Both the position numbers and the translations under genes were made by a program. From Moritella marina ATCC 15381 (GTDB lineage Bacteria; Pseudomonadota; Gammaproteobacteria; Enterobacterales; Moritellaceae), in the NCBI RefSeq assembly GCF_008931805.1, contig NZ_CP044399.1:1674001-1738000 (forward strand): a DNA stretch of 64,000 nucleotides. Reading direction: 5' to 3'. Positions 19,391 through 27,519 of this stretch are shown piece after piece. Numbering within the stretch: the first letter of the stretch is position 1; every line of letters begins with the position of its first letter. The notes beneath the pieces are model-generated. The model saw nothing but the letters and a program-made list of their open reading frames with translations, did no database searches and had not been told where the DNA came from.

Positions 19391-20302
19391 ATGTTACAAA
19401 AATCACTTTCAGATCTTAATAAGGTCGTCGCGATTGGCGGTGGTCATGGGCTAGGCCGAGTGCTGTCGTCCCTGTCTTTTTTAGGCCCTAGATTAACCGG
19501 TATTGTAACAACAACCGATAATGGTGGCTCAACAGGGCGTCTTAGAAACGCTGAGAATTGTATTGCTTGGGGTGATATCCGCAACTGTATTAATCAGTTA
19601 GTCACGCAGCCAGACATCGGTTCATTGTTGTTTGAATATCGCTTCCAAAATGAAGGTGAGCTAAAAAATCATAACCTAGGTAACCTGATGCTTGTCGCAT
19701 TAGATAACCTTTGTGTACGACCTTTAGATGCAGTCAACCTTATTCGTAATATGCTTCATGTCGAATGCCAGCTTATTCCGATGTCTGAGCAGCCAAGTGA
19801 CTTAATTGCAGTAACGCCTTGTGGCAGTGATGTGTACGGTGAAGTATCTGTAGATAAAATGCATGAGTTTCCAAATGAATTAACTGTCCAACCAAATGTA
19901 TCTGCAACACTTGAAGCCGTACAAGCAATTGAAAAGGCCGAGTTGATATTATTAGGTCCTGGATCATTCCTCACCAGTATTATGCCGCCCTTGCTTTTAA
20001 AAGACATACAAGTGGCCCTGCGCCGAACAAACGCAAAAGTAATATACTTAGGTAATTTACAGCCCGAGATAGGACCGGCATCGACAATTTCACTACAAGC
20101 ACGCTTAAAGTGGTGTGAAGGTAAGTTAGGTTTCCCGCTGATTAATGCCGTGATACAGGATATAGATAAACAATCTGAACTAACTTATCCTACCTATACC
20201 CATGATTTACGAGAAAATCTAAATAAAAATTATCACGACAGAGATAAATTAAAAGCAGCGATCGAATCAGTCGTTAATCACATTTTAATGCCAGCGCGCT
20301 GA
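19391..20302 (+). CDS. ybhK: YbhK/YvcK-family (gluconeogenesis factor, CofD-like) protein
   Basis: 303 residues from [61 protein letters not shown] and LGPGSFLTS match E. coli YbhK closely. YvcK-type proteins bind UDP-sugars and affect cell-wall growth and carbon metabolism in Bacillus. The start aligns with YbhK; an upstream in-frame ATG at 19352 is possible and neither has a strong Shine-Dalgarno. In E. coli ybhK adjoins moaA, so its closeness to moaA here looks like retained synteny. Its 3' end overlaps the convergent Hpt gene by 29 bp. Confidence 0.82.
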
Positions 20303-20618
20303 TCGCATCTTCTAAACTTTTAATTAACAATGGTAATTTCACTTGCACTTCTGCCGTGCTATTTGATTTTGCCATGACTTCCAATTCCTCAGCATGTTGT
20401 TGCACAATCAAGGCACCATAAGTCCCGGCACTACTTTTGATACTATGACAGCTTTGCGCTACTTTATCATGATCTACGTTAGTCATTAACGCTTTTAGAT
20501 CTGCAATACGCTCAGTTGTTTCTTCGTTAAAAACATCCACTAACGCTGGTAACATCTCTTCCCCAACATCAACCAGTAATTGAGAGAATACCGTTTCATT
20601 AATAACTGTGTTTTCCAT
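20274..20618 (-). CDS. Hpt-domain phosphotransfer protein
   Basis: 114 residues, a single Hpt domain. The phospho-accepting histidine is H58 in [14 protein letters not shown], matching the Hpt signature HxLKSxxxxxGA. It is cytoplasmic with no kinase domain. It lies 63 nt after the kinase-receiver-phosphatase gene and is the last gene of that operon, so it probably passes phosphate to or from that receiver, as HptB does to HsbR in Pseudomonas. The donor kinase is not in the window. Confidence 0.85.
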
Positions 20619-20681
20619 TTCATTACCTCTTACTGTAAATTATAACTCTAAATAATAGCTTTACTCGATAGTCAGTACCGG

Positions 20682-22172
20682 TTAAGTATGGATTTCAATA
20701 ACTAACGCAGTGACATCATCTTGTAACTGTTCAGGAGAAAGTGATTCAAAACGCAGCCAGAGTTTATCTAACGTACTTTGAGCTGTTTTCCCTTTAATAT
20801 CAACAAGTATATTATCAATACAGTCACAGTTTCTGTCAATGTTTTCAAAAATACCGTCAGAATAGAAAAATAATTTATCTTCGGGTGTTAATTGCAAAGT
20901 CACTGATTCATATTGCTCATCAGAGAGTAAACCTAATACAGTGCCTTTACAGTCAATAGCCTCATAACCAGACCCGTGTAGTAAGTAGGGCTGCGGGTGT
21001 CCTGCCAAAGCTATTTCACATTGCTTACCGGTAAGTTTAATAACCGTGCAGGTTAGCATGCTGGTTTCTAATAGTTGATTTACATACAGCCGATTAGATA
21101 ATCCAGCAAGTAACTCCGTAGGTGAAATATCTGCAGCTGTTACTACCCCTTCTAAATACCCCATGATGGCAAAGCTATGGAATTTAGCGACAGGGCCATG
21201 CCCCATAATATCACCTAACACGATAATCTGACTTTCACCAAAGTCATGAAAAAATACAAAATCACCACCACCTTCAGTCGCTGGAGTATGTGCTAACGCG
21301 AGGTTCCACAGCCCACTTATTGAAGGGAGCGAGGGCTTAAATGGTCGGCTCAGCGATTCCACTACTCGTTGTTGATAATGTAGCGCGAGTTGATTTGTCC
21401 TGCGTATAACCCGATTACAAACAGCAAGTAATGATGTTTTGGTGATAGGTTTAATTAAATAACCATCAATTGATACTTCTGCGGCTTGTTCTTGTATCGT
21501 CAGGTTTTCATCCCCCGTTAAGAATACGAACGGTGTTAATGCGCCTTTATCTAGGTCTTCAACTTTTTGCCTAAATTCAAATCCAGACATCTCGGGCATA
21601 TGTATGTCTGCAATAATAAGCTCACAACCTTCATGAGCAATAAACTTAAGTGCCTGAACAGCACCAGAAAAAGTATGCACAACAAAATCATTCTTGAGAT
21701 ATGCCTGATGTGCTGATAATAAAATTAGATCATCATCAACAATCACCACTTTGAGCTTTTTCTCTTGCTTACTCAATGGGCAAGTTAATGTATTTATACC
21801 GTGGGCGCTCACATAATAGCCATCGGGGTTATTATTTTGAATTAACGCTAACCCCATCCCCCCCGTCAGCAACTCACCATTAAATATATCATTCGTATTC
21901 GCTTGATAAGGGTTAAAACTGTCACCGTTATCGGACACGGAAAAATACCAATCTCCGTTGCTACCAGCAAGTTCTATACTAAACCAGTGAACAGAGTCTG
22001 GATTATGGAAATACAAATTCGACAGGTATTCAGCTAGCACTAACGTCACACGATCTATTTCTGCTTGATCGAGTGCCAATTGATAGCACAATGCAGTGAG
22101 TAAACGCCGAACTTCGCTAATAGAGTCCAACTTTAACGAGTATTGCTTTGCGAATAGCTGTGTTTTCATCAA
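20682..22172 (-). CDS. SypE/HsbR-like partner-switch regulator: RsbW-type kinase + receiver + PP2C phosphatase
   Basis: 496 residues in three parts. Residues 1-135 are an RsbW/SpoIIAB-type HATPase (N52 in EYLSN, DNGDSFNP at 81-88, TGGMGLAL). Residues 140-258 are a receiver with D189 (LIIADIHMPEMSG) and K241 (LIKP). Residues 285-496 are a SpoIIE/PP2C phosphatase with metal-binding D304 (GGGDF), D321 (GDIMGHG) and D485-D486 (QDDVTALV). This order is that of V. fischeri SypE, whose kinase and phosphatase act on the STAS protein SypA. The likely substrate is the STAS protein at the head of the operon. Overlaps the ATPase gene by 4 nt. Confidence 0.85.
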   Translation of the reverse strand: MMKTQLFAKQYSLKLDSISEVRRLLTALCYQLALDQAEIDRVTLVLAEYLSNLYFHNPDSVHWFSIELAGSNGDWYFSVSDNGDSFNPYQANTNDIFNGELLTGGMGLALIQNNNPDGYYVSAHGINTLTCPLSKQEKKLKVVIVDDDLILLSAHQAYLKNDFVVHTFSGAVQALKFIAHEGCELIIADIHMPEMSGFEFRQKVEDLDKGALTPFVFLTGDENLTIQEQAAEVSIDGYLIKPITKTSLLAVCNRVIRRTNQLALHYQQRVVESLSRPFKPSLPSISGLWNLALAHTPATEGGGDFVFFHDFGESQIIVLGDIMGHGPVAKFHSFAIMGYLEGVVTAADISPTELLAGLSNRLYVNQLLETSMLTCTVIKLTGKQCEIALAGHPQPYLLHGSGYEAIDCKGTVLGLLSDEQYESVTLQLTPEDKLFFYSDGIFENIDRNCDCIDNILVDIKGKTAQSTLDKLWLRFESLSPEQLQDDVTALVIEIHT

Positions 22173-22888
22173 CGACCTATATTCCCTTTTAACAATTCGA
22201 TATTCGAGATGCGCTTAAGTAGCCATCGCTCGACTCTCGGAAAACGTTTTAACCGTCTTCGCACAGAGTTTCTTAATTGCATATCCAGTGGTGGGCAATG
22301 TACATCATTGATAACAGTACCGAGCAAATTAATCTGGTTGTTGTTAAAAATTGCCATTGTCTTTAATACCCGACTCTCTAATGAAATCCCGGGCGCTACA
22401 ACAAGTAAACAAGCATCACAAACTCTCGCGATGACCTCACCTGGAATATTTGAAAAGTTTGCCCGCGTGATCGCGCATGTATCAAATATAATAAAATTAT
22501 AACGTTTCAGCCAAATCTCTATCGCACTTTTGAGTTTTTTTTCATCTCGAAAACTAATGTTTTGATCTTGTTCACTTTGTGGCGCAGGTAAAATATCTAT
22601 CATTGCTGAAAGTGGGGTTACACAAGCGTTTTGTAGCGTCGCGTCATCCAAAGACCATGGCTGCTTTTTTTCAACATACTCATTAGTGATTGCTGGTTTA
22701 AATGTATTTAGATCGACGATTAATACTTTATTACCCGCGGCTTTATAGCGCCGAGCTAGCGCTAAAACTAACTCCGTGGTACCTTCTTTACCTTGAGCAC
22801 AATTTATCGAAATTGATTTAATATTCTCACTCATAATTGATTGATATATCTGCTCTATTTCTACGAATGTCTCTGGTAATATATTCAT
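22169..22888 (-). CDS. ParA/BY-kinase-like ATPase with degenerate P-loop
   Basis: 239 residues, P-loop NTPase fold of the CpsD/Wzc-kinase and ParA type. A second Walker-type aspartate (KVLIVDLNTFKP, D59) and Walker B (FIIFDT, D136) are clear. The Walker A is QGKEGTT at 32-38 where G-x-G-K-S/T is expected: the invariant lysine is replaced by threonine. There is no C-terminal tyrosine cluster; the tail is basic (RRRLKRFPR). Context with an SLBB export protein suggests a role like the cytoplasmic part of a polysaccharide co-polymerase, but enzymatic activity is doubtful. Overlaps both neighbours by 4 nt. Confidence 0.65.
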   Translation of the reverse strand: MNILPETFVEIEQIYQSIMSENIKSISINCAQGKEGTTELVLALARRYKAAGNKVLIVDLNTFKPAITNEYVEKKQPWSLDDATLQNACVTPLSAMIDILPAPQSEQDQNISFRDEKKLKSAIEIWLKRYNFIIFDTCAITRANFSNIPGEVIARVCDACLLVVAPGISLESRVLKTMAIFNNNQINLLGTVINDVHCPPLDMQLRNSVRRRLKRFPRVERWLLKRISNIELLKGNIGR

Positions 22889-25005
22889 AATGAAGAGCCG
22901 ACAATAAAGAGTGTAACCACACTAAGTGCACTGCCTAATATATTCATAAATTGACTCCAATTTGAATCACTTTCATTAGGTATATAGATGGTATCACCCG
23001 CATGTATAATCGGGATATCGCGATAATCAGGCTGAGTAAAATAGTTTTTCATATTAAACGTACGTGCTGTGTGCTCCATTTCACCATGTTTAGTGAGAAT
23101 AACAATGCGATCAATATACGCTTCAGACGTTGGCCCTCCGGCCATTGTTAATATACCGACAACATCCAATGAAGCGTCATATTTATAACGTCCTGGGTTA
23201 TGTACTGCGCCTAATATCTGCACAATGTTAACTGTATTGTTCAACTCACCAACATCTGTTTTAGCCGGGATGTAAATGGTATCACCAGGCAGTACTTGCG
23301 GTAACAGGTTTTCATCGCCTGTTTCAAAGTACATATCAAGATCTAACGTTGACGCTTTAGCATAACGACGATTACGATGAGTTATTTTAATATGCTTAAT
23401 ATCAGCTTCATTCGTAGGACCATCTGCCGCGGATAGTAAATCAAGAAAGTCCAATCCACTATTAAATGCGTAACGGCCAGGCGCACCTACCGCGCCTAGG
23501 ATATAGATTGATGATTCAGACTCTTGCTTTATCCACTTAGATTTATTGTCATGGGGATCATCAGGCAATTCATTAAACATCACCGTATCGCCTGCTGATA
23601 ATTGTGGTAATGATAAATAATCACCACCAACTTTCATAAATTTTTCTAAATCAAAATACTGACGCTGACCTAAACCATCATTCCCAACAATAATGATTTT
23701 CGCTAAATCTGCTTTTTCAGTTGGGCCTTCAGCATGCCCGAGCAGATCAAGAAATGTCATATCATCATCCCACTGGTAACGCCCCGGATTTTTAACCGCA
23801 CCAATGATCTTAATAGCCTCATTATGTGCTTCGATTAACCAAGATTTTTCAATCATGTCCGCTTTTTCCGGTAAAAATATAACGTCGCCCCCCGCAATTA
23901 AAGGAAAGGGGTTATTTTCAGGATCATCGGAATATTTTTTTAAATCAAACCGGAATGTATCACCATTAACTTTCAGTATTTTAATTTGTTGAGTATCTGC
24001 ATATCGGTTTGGGCCACCTGCATTGGCCAACATATCCATAAAGGTAATACCTTCACGTCCTTCATAAGCGCCGGGTTTATTAACCTGCCCCATAACATAA
24101 ACAACTTGTAAACCGACTTTGATATCTGCCACTTGAATGGGTACAAAAATAGTCGTACCAGGTTTCACTTTGGGTAGTTTAGATACATCACCGGTATCGA
24201 GGTAAAGCTTTAGGTCGAATGTTTGCGGTTCTTTCAACCCCATCACTCTTATCTTACTCACATTACCGTAGCGGGTAACACCGTTCGCTTTCATTAAACT
24301 TTCTATTACCGTCATACCCGGCACATAAGAAAACGTGCCAGGCGCATTAACTTCACCAAATACCGTTACTGCTTTTTGGGTATCACTTGCATCACCACCT
24401 GATTTTAATGTGGTCGCATCAAAAATCATCTGTACATTACCAGTCAGAGGCGATGACGGCACGAAGATAACATCGCCAGACTTAAGTATTGGTAATTCCT
24501 TTTCGTCCCCTGTTTCCAGATATCGCTTAAAGTCAAAAATGATCACTTTAGCGCCACGTTGTAACTGCATATTGTCAAGCTGAGCACCAGATAGCATCCC
24601 CCCCGCTTTATTCAATGCCATTTGTACATTACCAAATTCAGGCAGTACAACTTCACGAGGATCCTTAACATAGCCCAGTACGGTTACTAGCTTTTCGCGC
24701 GCTCTAAACTCAATATACAGTTTCGATATATCACGAAATACCAAACTCAAATCTGCTTTTAATTCTTTGAGCACCATAGCGAGGGTTTTACCTTTAACTA
24801 GCATCCTCCCTACTTCTGGTATCTGAATATACCCACCTCCATCAACTTGAAACGGAGCTTCAAAATCTTTTTCACCGGGCATAAAAATGAACAATTGGTC
24901 ACCAGAATCAATTAATTCACTTTCAGCATAAACGATAGACGATGTCGATAACAACGTAAGAAAAAGCGTTAAAGATAAAGTACAACACAAGGCGATAAAT
25001 TTCAT
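22885..25005 (-). CDS. Polysaccharide-export type protein with six SLBB repeats
   Basis: 706 residues. Signal peptide (about 1-27, ending VYA), a Poly_export/Wza N-terminal domain (GDQLFIFMPGEKDFEAPF...VDGGGYIQIPEVG), then six SLBB repeats, each starting like VLGxVxxPGRY and closing like GDTIYIP. A hydrophobic C-terminal segment (about 685-706) may be a membrane anchor. Wza-type exporters usually have two SLBB domains, so six is high. There is no lipobox cysteine at the signal cleavage site. Probably a periplasmic or outer-membrane channel or scaffold for glycan export, but no glycosyltransferases lie nearby. Confidence 0.8.
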   Translation of the reverse strand: MKFIALCCTLSLTLFLTLLSTSSIVYAESELIDSGDQLFIFMPGEKDFEAPFQVDGGGYIQIPEVGRMLVKGKTLAMVLKELKADLSLVFRDISKLYIEFRAREKLVTVLGYVKDPREVVLPEFGNVQMALNKAGGMLSGAQLDNMQLQRGAKVIIFDFKRYLETGDEKELPILKSGDVIFVPSSPLTGNVQMIFDATTLKSGGDASDTQKAVTVFGEVNAPGTFSYVPGMTVIESLMKANGVTRYGNVSKIRVMGLKEPQTFDLKLYLDTGDVSKLPKVKPGTTIFVPIQVADIKVGLQVVYVMGQVNKPGAYEGREGITFMDMLANAGGPNRYADTQQIKILKVNGDTFRFDLKKYSDDPENNPFPLIAGGDVIFLPEKADMIEKSWLIEAHNEAIKIIGAVKNPGRYQWDDDMTFLDLLGHAEGPTEKADLAKIIIVGNDGLGQRQYFDLEKFMKVGGDYLSLPQLSAGDTVMFNELPDDPHDNKSKWIKQESESSIYILGAVGAPGRYAFNSGLDFLDLLSAADGPTNEADIKHIKITHRNRRYAKASTLDLDMYFETGDENLLPQVLPGDTIYIPAKTDVGELNNTVNIVQILGAVHNPGRYKYDASLDVVGILTMAGGPTSEAYIDRIVILTKHGEMEHTARTFNMKNYFTQPDYRDIPIIHAGDTIYIPNESDSNWSQFMNILGSALSVVTLFIVGSSL

Positions 25006-26132
25006 AATGCGATACCTTTAAACAGTGATGCATCGTTGAACTGTTCGCCTTCATTCAACAAAAAACGCCAATCTTTTACTTTATGATTTACATCTTGATT
25101 AGCCTCTGATTGCCACATTAACGTACTAATGATAGGAGTTGAAGACGTTATAGCATCACGGCGTAAGTCCTCATAAAGAACTTTATGACGTAATGGTTCA
25201 GCTGTAATGTTGAGTAAATAATTAAATATGGCATCCGTACGTAAATTAAGTAATTCAACGTCATCTAAACTCGTTGCATAAGTATTAACAGCTAACTTAT
25301 TAGAGAATATAATTTGCTCATTGGATGTATCAATCTCATGTATTTGTACCGGTGTATGCTGCTCTATATTTATTTGCAAACGGGATAATTGTTCTACATT
25401 GACACTCGGAACTTGCTCAAACAGTAAATACTGACGCATTATTTCATTGTAATCGTCAACACCTTTATCCTCTTCCATAGGTTGCGCATTATCATCTACG
25501 ATGGTATCCATGTCGTGTATCACAATAGCGTCGTTGTAATTGAGATTAGATTGCGCACTTTTTTTATTTACGGTGTTTTCAAAAAGTTTATATTTGGTGT
25601 ATTCAACCACAATTTTTGGGTTATCTAGGAGTAGAAAACTGACCTGGCGAAGACAGGCTTTATACTCTGCAGTCAAAATAGCGTTACCCGTTTCAAATTG
25701 CGGTGCGCAGTATAGTAAGAGATCAAGTTGGTAAATCAGTGGATGTACAAAATTAGACGTAAGTATACGTGAGGGTTGTGCACAATTCGTATTACTGGTT
25801 ACTTGATTCAGTTGTACAACTAAATTAGTAATATGTTTTTCAAGAATGGCTATTTCAACTTTAATATCTTGTGGGTCTTCTACTTCGATGGACTTTGCAA
25901 CACGACTATTAATATTATTGACCGTTTTTACATATGCAGGAATACACGCTTGTGCCCCCCGTAAATTAGCTACGGATAAATGCAGATTTAAATAATCATA
26001 ATGTTGCTTAAAGAGGACGCGCTCTTCGGTGTGAGCACCTAAATCAGTGAAATAACCTTCGTCCGGCCAATTAGTACATGCGGATAAAGATAAAGATAAA
26101 CACATAGCTATCCCTAGCAATAATTTATTCAT
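25002..26132 (-). CDS. Lipoprotein of unknown function in the SLBB/STAS operon
   Basis: 376 residues. The signal MNKLLLGIAMCLSLSLSAC has a lipobox (LSAC) with the modifiable cysteine at 19, so it is a lipoprotein; the residue after it is T, not D, consistent with outer-membrane sorting. The rest is mostly helical, acidic in the middle (DDNAQPMEEDKGVDD), with several cysteines (C63, C117, C142, C160 region). I recognise no domain. It overlaps the SLBB gene by 4 nt and follows the STAS gene by 21 nt, so it belongs to the export machinery or its regulation. Confidence 0.7.
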   Translation of the reverse strand: MNKLLLGIAMCLSLSLSACTNWPDEGYFTDLGAHTEERVLFKQHYDYLNLHLSVANLRGAQACIPAYVKTVNNINSRVAKSIEVEDPQDIKVEIAILEKHITNLVVQLNQVTSNTNCAQPSRILTSNFVHPLIYQLDLLLYCAPQFETGNAILTAEYKACLRQVSFLLLDNPKIVVEYTKYKLFENTVNKKSAQSNLNYNDAIVIHDMDTIVDDNAQPMEEDKGVDDYNEIMRQYLLFEQVPSVNVEQLSRLQINIEQHTPVQIHEIDTSNEQIIFSNKLAVNTYATSLDDVELLNLRTDAIFNYLLNITAEPLRHKVLYEDLRRDAITSSTPIISTLMWQSEANQDVNHKVKDWRFLLNEGEQFNDASLFKGIAL

Positions 26133-26153
26133 TCAATACCTTACGGCATTTTA

Positions 26154-26489
26154 TTATGCCGAGTGATTTGTCTCACTTTCACTAATATCTTCGATAAAGG
26201 GAATTGCATTTTCGACCCGTAACATTGTCATCAGTTTATAGGGTTGACCTGATACTTTAAGTAAAGATAGCGTTCGACGCTGTGAAATCAGTCTTTTAAA
26301 TAAAAAAACAATCGCGCCAATACCTGTCGAATCTATAAAATTCACGTTTGAAAAATCCAGAACGATATTCTCTTTATGATCTTGAACTAATAATTCCAAA
26401 CTAGACTGAAGACTGGCTACATGTTCAGAATCAAGGTCTGTAGCGATAGGTAAAATTATGATGCCATCATAAGGTCTTAATATGTCCAT
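26154..26489 (-). CDS. STAS-domain anti-anti-sigma-type protein (SypA/HsbA-like)
   Basis: 111 residues, a single STAS domain. The site NFIDSTGIGAIVFL holds S54, the serine phosphorylated in RsbV/SpoIIAA/SypA proteins. It is the first gene of the operon, while the RsbW-kinase/PP2C regulator is the fifth, so both halves of a partner switch are co-transcribed. In V. fischeri only unphosphorylated SypA promotes biofilm; the downstream partner here is unknown and need not be a sigma factor. Confidence 0.85.
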   Translation of the reverse strand: MDILRPYDGIIILPIATDLDSEHVASLQSSLELLVQDHKENIVLDFSNVNFIDSTGIGAIVFLFKRLISQRRTLSLLKVSGQPYKLMTMLRVENAIPFIEDISESETNHSA

Positions 26490-26511
26490 TATAACTACTC
26501 CAAAGAATACA

Positions 26512-26539
26512 ACGTTAATTCTGATGGTAATATTAACGT
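26512..26539. promoter_or_regulatory. Inverted repeat upstream of the STAS gene, operator candidate
   Basis: ACGTTAAT (26512-26519) and its exact inverse ATTAACGT (26532-26539), 12-nt spacer, 23-50 nt upstream of the STAS ATG. A related half ACGTTAAA lies near 26581. It may be a dimer binding site in the promoter of the export operon; the factor is unknown. Confidence 0.4.
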
Positions 26540-26603
26540 AAAATGCATTTATATTTTCAAGCTCACAGTTAATAATATAGACGTTAAAACCATAAAGTGC
26601 ACA

Positions 26604-26630
26604 AATAAAAAAACCACCCGAAGGTGGTTT
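26604..26630 (-). terminator. Rho-independent terminator of the sdh-suc operon
   Basis: AAACCACC (26611-26618), CGAA loop, GGTGGTTT (26623-26630), with a T-tract on the minus strand. It lies 20 nt after sucD. Confidence 0.9.
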
Positions 26631-26649
26631 AATATAATTAAAACAAGTA

Positions 26650-27519
26650 TTAACCTAATTTAGCACGTAATGCCGAGCCAATATCAGCTAATGAACGCAC
26701 TGTTGACACGCCTGCGTCTTCAAGGGCTGCAAATTTCTCGTCTGCAGTACCTTTACCGCCAGCGATAATTGCGCCAGCATGACCCATACGTTTACCAGCA
26801 GGAGCTGTAACACCGGCAATGTAAGAAACAACAGGTTTAGTTACATGTGCTTTAATATAAGCAGCAGCTTCTTCTTCTGCAGTACCACCAATTTCACCAA
26901 TCATTACGATTGCTTCAGTTTGTGGATCTTTTTCAAACAATTCAAGTACATCAATAAAGTTAGTACCTGGGATTGGATCACCACCGATACCAACACAAGT
27001 TGATTGACCGTAGCCTTCGTCAGTCGTTTGTTTTACAGCTTCATACGTTAATGTACCAGAGCGTGAAACAATACCAATTTTACCTGGCTTGTGAATGTGA
27101 CCAGGCATAATACCAATCTTACATTCACCTGGAGTGATAACACCCGGACAGTTAGGACCGATCATACGCACATTTTGTTGATCAAGTTTTACTTTAACTT
27201 CGATCATATCTACAGTCGGGATACCTTCTGTAATACAAACGATAAGTTCAATACCTGCATCAATAGCTTCTAAGATCGCATCTTTACAGAACGGTGCTGG
27301 TACATAGATAACAGACGCTGTTGCGCCAGTTGTTTCTACTGCATCACGCACAGTGTTGAATACAGGCAGACCTAGATGTTTTGTGCCGCCTTTACCAGGA
27401 GAAACACCACCAACCATTTGAGTGCCGTAATCAGCAGCCTGCTCTGAGTGGAATGTACCTTGACCACCAGTGAAACCTTGACAGATTACTTTCGTATCTT
27501 TATTAATTAAAACGCTCAT
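26650..27519 (-). CDS. sucD: SucD, succinyl-CoA synthetase alpha subunit
   Basis: 289 residues, same length as E. coli SucD. It has the CoA-binding Rossmann region ([16 protein letters not shown]), SRSGTLTYE and the active-site histidine region [17 protein letters not shown]. With SucC it converts succinyl-CoA, ADP and phosphate to succinate, ATP and CoA. It abuts sucC with no gap and ends the sdhCDAB-sucABCD array. Confidence 0.98.

Follow-up and report, generated by a model that had tools for sequence, protein, structure and literature searches.

We identify the six-gene operon studied here as sypA-B-C-D-E plus a stand-alone Hpt gene, i.e. as the regulatory and export module of a Wzx/Wzy exopolysaccharide system of the syp/scv type with dispersed assembly genes (probability about 0.88). 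Our confidence is high for this identity and moderate for the mechanism. The operon lies in a 64,000-nucleotide stretch of the Moritella marina ATCC 15381 genome (the window, meaning the whole stretch of DNA that was analysed), and its six open reading frames were confirmed in coordinates, minus-strand orientation and domains as originally called (Table 1). The sypABCDE set has been published as syp, rbd and scv and as the eps locus of V. diabolicus (PMC8941931, PMC5801674, PMC4517449). The original prediction was thus wrong in knowing of no description of the set: SypB, SypC and SypD correspond to the lipoprotein, the SLBB exporter and the ATPase, and both gene order and gene content are largely those of a locus already characterised. 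Orthology to the V. fischeri Syp proteins would follow from gene order, domains, residues mapped by mutagenesis and the SypG motif rather than from direct alignment.

Table 1. Features of the sypABCDE-Hpt operon and of the remote assembly genes. Plain numbers are window positions; those with C2 are genome positions.
Feature	Position	Strand	Basis or remark
sypA-like STAS protein, 111 aa	26154..26489	-	Pfam STAS 2.9e-17
sypB-like lipoprotein, 376 aa	25002..26132	-	profile match over residues 2-175, probability 98.4%
sypC-like outer-membrane polysaccharide export protein, 706 aa	22885..25005	-	Pfam Poly_export and six SLBB
sypD-like P-loop ATPase, 239 aa	22169..22888	-	TIGR01007 1e-13; BcsQ/BY-kinase-like
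sypE-like serine kinase-REC-PP2C phosphatase	20682..22172	-	Pfam HATPase_c_2-REC-SpoIIE; likely ATG start at 22169
stand-alone Hpt, 114 aa	20274..20618	-	Pfam Hpt 6.7e-10
sucD-sypA leader	26490..26649	-	sucCD terminator at 26611-26630 and putative promoter region of the sypA operon
S54 codon, counterpart of SypE-phosphorylated S56 of V. fischeri SypA	26328..26330	-	DSTG motif
D189 codon, REC phosphoacceptor	21606..21608	-	invariant in 20 aligned proteins
H58 codon, Hpt phosphoacceptor	20445..20447	-	invariant in 19 aligned Hpt domains
M-N-(small lipoprotein)-O-P-QR	G000:C2:1358794-1365809		36-49% identity to L037 counterparts
J-K-G	C2:2355779-2359889		G 52% identical vs 39% for the next paralogue; K sole match
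L	C2:2381132-2382562		54% identity

With the syp locus of V. fischeri (rbd in V. vulnificus, scv in V. parahaemolyticus, eps in V. diabolicus) the Moritella genes share the A-B-C-D-E order, the domain architecture of SypE, the phosphoserine and function-critical residues of SypA, the Wzx, Wzy, Wzz and glycosyltransferase (GT) genes and a SypG-type regulator. They differ in lying in at least four places, in having a stand-alone Hpt for sypF, a SypB devoid of OmpA and a fused sypQ-R, and in showing neither a recognised sypH or sypI nor a sigma54 element before sypA; sypF, sypH and sypI were not found in Moritella by a non-exhaustive search.

The operon is compact. Overlaps of 4 bp had been proposed at three of its five junctions: two are certain, the ATGA overlaps of lipoprotein with SLBB gene and of SLBB with ATPase gene, while the third hinges on the start codon of the phosphatase gene, since a TTG start yields a 4 bp overlap and an ATG one codon on yields 1 bp (TGATG). 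Orthologues in several Moritella genomes favour the ATG as the likely start. Spacers of 21 bp and 63 bp separate STAS from lipoprotein gene and phosphatase from Hpt gene. Every one of the 11 Moritella genomes searched preserves the six-gene order and the adjacency to yvcK; the arrangement is therefore not due to chance. A terminator scan placed the sucCD terminator between sucD and the STAS gene, so the operon is probably transcribed from a promoter of its own. What lies upstream of sypA varies among Moritella species (compared in the window and at L054, L057, L058 and L063), being sucCD in some and other genes in the rest; this side of the operon (26490-26650) is therefore a rearrangement point.

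Complete loci of the same kind are found in other families. In the clearest example (L037/L080) the gene order is K-L-M-N-O-P-QR-A-B(OmpA)-C-D-E-G, encoding respectively a flippase, Wzy, a hexapeptide transferase, a GT, a Wzz/PCP protein, a GT, a GT2/priming transferase fusion, the STAS protein, an OmpA lipoprotein, the SLBB exporter, the ATPase, the kinase-REC-PP2C protein and a sigma54 regulator. This order matches the published syp/eps gene map (PMC5801674, PMC8941931), and an scvN-scvO fusion and the sypM hexapeptide transferase have both been described (PMC8941931). In the other-family genomes that we read, the cassette forms part of complete exopolysaccharide loci; these encode GTs and a priming transferase and, in many cases, Wzy, a flippase and a sigma54 regulator as well. 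One of these families (f21) would be Vibrionaceae, judging from enhancer motif and locus type. A near-complete syp-like locus (L092) also lies on the 396-kb plasmid pPS-MS-17-188-1 of Plesiomonas shigelloides, and the same SLBB protein is encoded in another Plesiomonas plasmid record; no plasmid records other than these two contain a homologue that is both close and full-length.

As expected of a syp/scv locus, the SypC and SypD counterparts directly follow sypA-B. Proteins 43-51% identical to the sypC-like product occur in 60 other-family genomes. The lipoprotein matches no Pfam family; its N-terminal half is homologous to the SypB-type proteins of relatives (hhalign, 98.4%). Pfam detects no OmpA domain in Moritella SypB, whereas it is present in 5/5 relatives scanned, and a hidden OmpA fold in the C-terminus was rejected at an hhalign probability of 0.2%; AlphaFold2 models were too poor to use, both for this protein (pLDDT 33.6) and for the small lipoprotein of the remote operon (pLDDT 38.8). 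Short SypB counterparts without an OmpA match are also found in Plesiomonas and in an f25 locus. Because the scv loci of Aeromonas and Endozoicomonas are devoid of scvB altogether (PMC8941931), an OmpA-bearing SypB is not fully defining for syp/scv.

SypD-type ATPases resemble Wzc/BY-kinase (CpsD-type) ATPases in their score against the eps_fam model and in having a separate Wzz-type partner, but depart from them in two features. The Walker A lysine is absent from all 36 aligned members (GEGVT/S or similar), and a C-terminal tyrosine cluster is missing from the nine members inspected, which have at most one Tyr in their last 30 residues. Position 37 is T, G, A or S in Moritella and mostly V in relatives, and most members retain the Walker A' and B aspartates. 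With Wzz as a separate partner, the SypD type thus reads as a putative family of pseudo-BY-kinases.

The six-gene operon itself contains no gene for a glycosyltransferase, flippase or polymerase, as had been noted from the start; all were found elsewhere in the same genome. The suggestion that the switch may serve a remotely encoded glycan was therefore right: GTs, hexapeptide transferase, Wzz, priming transferase, Wzx and Wzy are encoded at other sites of the chromosome, the M-N-O-P-QR block about 330 kb from the window operon. K and L are found in 11/11 Moritella genomes, as is O. Across the order, the SLBB protein is present in 71 of 395 genomes, and all 71 also carry the Wzz-type PCP (sypO). 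Seven f25 genomes match the PCP only as two pieces (best piece 118-145 bits); leaving f25 aside, the two co-occur in 64/64 genomes, with PCP scores of at least 287 bits. In G190 the PCP was matched and, at the threshold used, the SLBB protein was not.

The SLBB protein and the lipoprotein could still export a different glycan, made by another capsule or exopolysaccharide locus of the genome. Exporters can be promiscuous, and there are three further Poly_export genes, at 1.43, 4.16 and 4.68 Mb. These three, however, sit among their own gene sets and show about 20-45% identity over single domains to the syp loci of relatives, while the MNOPQR block has no adjoining OPX gene and co-occurs with the window-type SLBB protein in 71/71 genomes. 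We consider export of another glycan very unlikely, and the proposal that the SLBB protein has a role other than export found no support.

What sets Moritella apart is the distance between the syp pieces. SLBB and PCP genes lie within 19 kb of each other in 60/60 non-Moritella genomes vs 0/11 Moritella genomes, in which they are 142-403 kb apart when on a shared contig and on separate contigs in five draft assemblies. Because the genomes are related, a Fisher value for this split cannot be read as if each case were independent; the dispersal is best counted as one event, presumably at the base of the genus. The Hpt gene overlaps the convergent yvcK gene in the window and at other-family loci L037 and L045. 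That stand-alone Hpt genes adjoin yvcK there too suggests that the operon has kept its ancestral position in the window, the K-to-R and G genes being the ones that relocated. A scattered syp/scv locus is not new in kind: scv genes lie from about 15 to 1,612 kb apart in V. comitans, V. panuliri and V. superstes (PMC8941931, whose main text makes no mention of Moritella). Those splits concern single Vibrio species, whereas the Moritella split is common to 11/11 genomes searched.

Two further genes deserve a description. A second Wzz-like PCP (G000:C2:192736-194148; L079:9216-10655), with cobalamin and ABC-transporter neighbours, is present in 11/11 Moritella genomes; we rejected it as SypO, given its 30% vs 40% identity to the SypO-type proteins of relatives and the lack of exopolysaccharide genes around it. 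Between sypN and sypO, also in 11/11 Moritella genomes, lies a gene for a lipoprotein of about 167 aa with no Pfam family (L075:8928-9434, equal to G000:C2:1360927-1361433). Weakly similar small lipoproteins occupy the same place in the Plesiomonas plasmid (L092:8187-8597) and in an f5 genome (L082:4971-5444; CpaD E=6e-4). The Moritella protein may take the place of the OmpA part that SypB lacks; its own likeness to OmpA is not significant (probability 0.1%).

The idea of a SypA/SypE-like switch is supported by the residues of SypA and the domain order of SypE. Residues S54, K65, R66, G81, Q82, R91 and P97 of the STAS protein correspond to SypA S56, K67, R68, G83, Q84, R93 and P99. The S54 position is Ser in 11/11 Moritella genomes and 23/26 relatives, and K65/R66 are invariant in all 37 aligned STAS proteins; in V. 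fischeri, alanine mutants of K67 and R68 are stable and form no biofilm (PMC4517449). At three loci (L040, L085 and L090) P or A replaces the phosphorylatable Ser of SypA, and no sypE is recognisable at any of them, as if loss of the kinase had freed the serine site. The sypE-like protein comprises HATPase (13-113), REC (142-251) and SpoIIE (316-494) domains by Pfam, in the kinase-REC-PP2C order published for SypE, with catalytic residues that are intact and conserved in the alignment. Since sypA occurs without sypE in V. vulnificus and V. parahaemolyticus (PMC4517449), the switch is not obligatory in a syp-type system.

The nearest NCBIfam model for the Hpt protein is LuxU, at 47.7 bits, below the cut-off of 140. 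In V. fischeri, a sypF deletion is complemented by the Hpt domain of SypF alone, and LuxU partly substitutes (PMC12369376). By this analogy, the window Hpt would be better read as a counterpart of the SypF Hpt domain than as HptB.

HptB had entered the original prediction through a likeness to the HptB-HsbR-HsbA system, and the same parts could in principle form a general partner switch of the HsbR/CrsR type, in which the kinase domain would be an anti-sigma factor for RpoS, or act via FlgM/FliA, with the export genes as mere neighbours. STAS, RsbW, REC, PP2C and Hpt parts are indeed common to HptB-HsbR-HsbA (PMC6482189); this system of P. aeruginosa and CrsR-CrsA of Shewanella both have an Hpt or phosphorelay input, a regulator with REC, PP2C and RsbW-type domains and a single-domain STAS partner. 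Moreover, the sypE-like product is the only RsbW-REC-PP2C protein of the genome (a second SpoIIE match, at C2:4329921, is an unrelated PP2C-protein kinase fusion in a nitrite-reductase context). But HsbR and CrsR have the order REC-PP2C-kinase, in contrast to the kinase-REC-PP2C order of SypE and of the window protein, and the comparison fails on this point. Their operons are also devoid of export genes, with output via FlgM, HsbD or RpoS, whereas the sypE-like gene follows sypD in 11/11 Moritella genomes and lies inside the syp locus of several other families. Invariance of the SypA-specific K65/R66 further argues against a general switch, which we regard as highly improbable.

Upstream of sypA (the STAS gene), 23/26 relatives have a -24/-12 sigma54 element, against about 0.5 expected from shuffled sequences, and the published SypG enhancer motif TTCTCANNNTG is found there in 8 relatives. 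A sigma54 scan found no such element before sypA in any of the 11 Moritella genomes, nor a sigma54 promoter before the other Moritella syp pieces examined. A sigma54-like site near the PCP paralogue (C2:195098) falls within a signal-peptide coding region and is probably due to chance. A sypG orthologue is nonetheless encoded at the remote J-K-G site, with 52% identity. A SypB without OmpA domain, the absence of a sigma54 promoter before sypA and the genus-wide dispersal thus appear to be specific to Moritella. Dispersal over at least four sites, together with the lost sigma54 promoter and OmpA domain, could also betray a decaying remnant, a locus broken up in Moritella whose export and switch part is a non-functional leftover, but the pieces examined (A, B, C, D, E, Hpt, K, L and O) all occur as long open frames in 11/11 Moritella genomes and the catalytic residues are invariant, making this the least likely of the readings considered.

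As a working syp-type system, the most likely function of the operon is that SypE sets the phosphorylation of SypA, so gating polysaccharide production below the level of transcription. By analogy with V. fischeri, a hybrid sensor kinase would exchange phosphate with H58 of the Hpt protein; one candidate is the orthologue of BinK, a hybrid kinase that represses the syp biofilm and has orthologues in two Moritella species (PMC5019070). The Hpt protein would in turn set the phosphorylation of D189 in the SypE receiver, and probably also that of the remote SypG. Unphosphorylated SypE would phosphorylate SypA at S54 (off), and phosphorylated SypE would dephosphorylate it (on), a cycle consistent with the intact catalytic residues. 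Active SypA would then permit polysaccharide production below the transcription level. As for the glycan, the genes for the following steps are present: the priming transferase QR and the GTs J, N and P would make it, K flip it and L polymerise it, with O (with D) controlling chain length and C with B exporting the product.

A more specific version can be put forward, although we consider it unlikely. The SypA/SypE switch of Moritella might be uncoupled from SypG/sigma54 transcription and be the main, post-translational gate of the dispersed polysaccharide machinery, with SypD, the degenerate ATPase, as the direct target of unphosphorylated SypA, in the manner of MlaB and MlaF. The STAS protein MlaB binds the MlaF ATPase, and the SypD gene lies beside sypA in nearly all loci read.

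These results remove an apparent paradox: an export channel and a switch with no sugar-making enzymes are explained by the dispersal of the assembly genes. They extend a known system to another genus, and they make Moritella a natural experiment: the switch and export module and the assembly genes are transcribed separately, and the former lacks the usual sigma54 promoter. What SypA acts on is still being asked in V. fischeri (PMC10120452), and Moritella, with its seemingly separate control of transcription and of protein activity after translation, would be a useful place to address that question.
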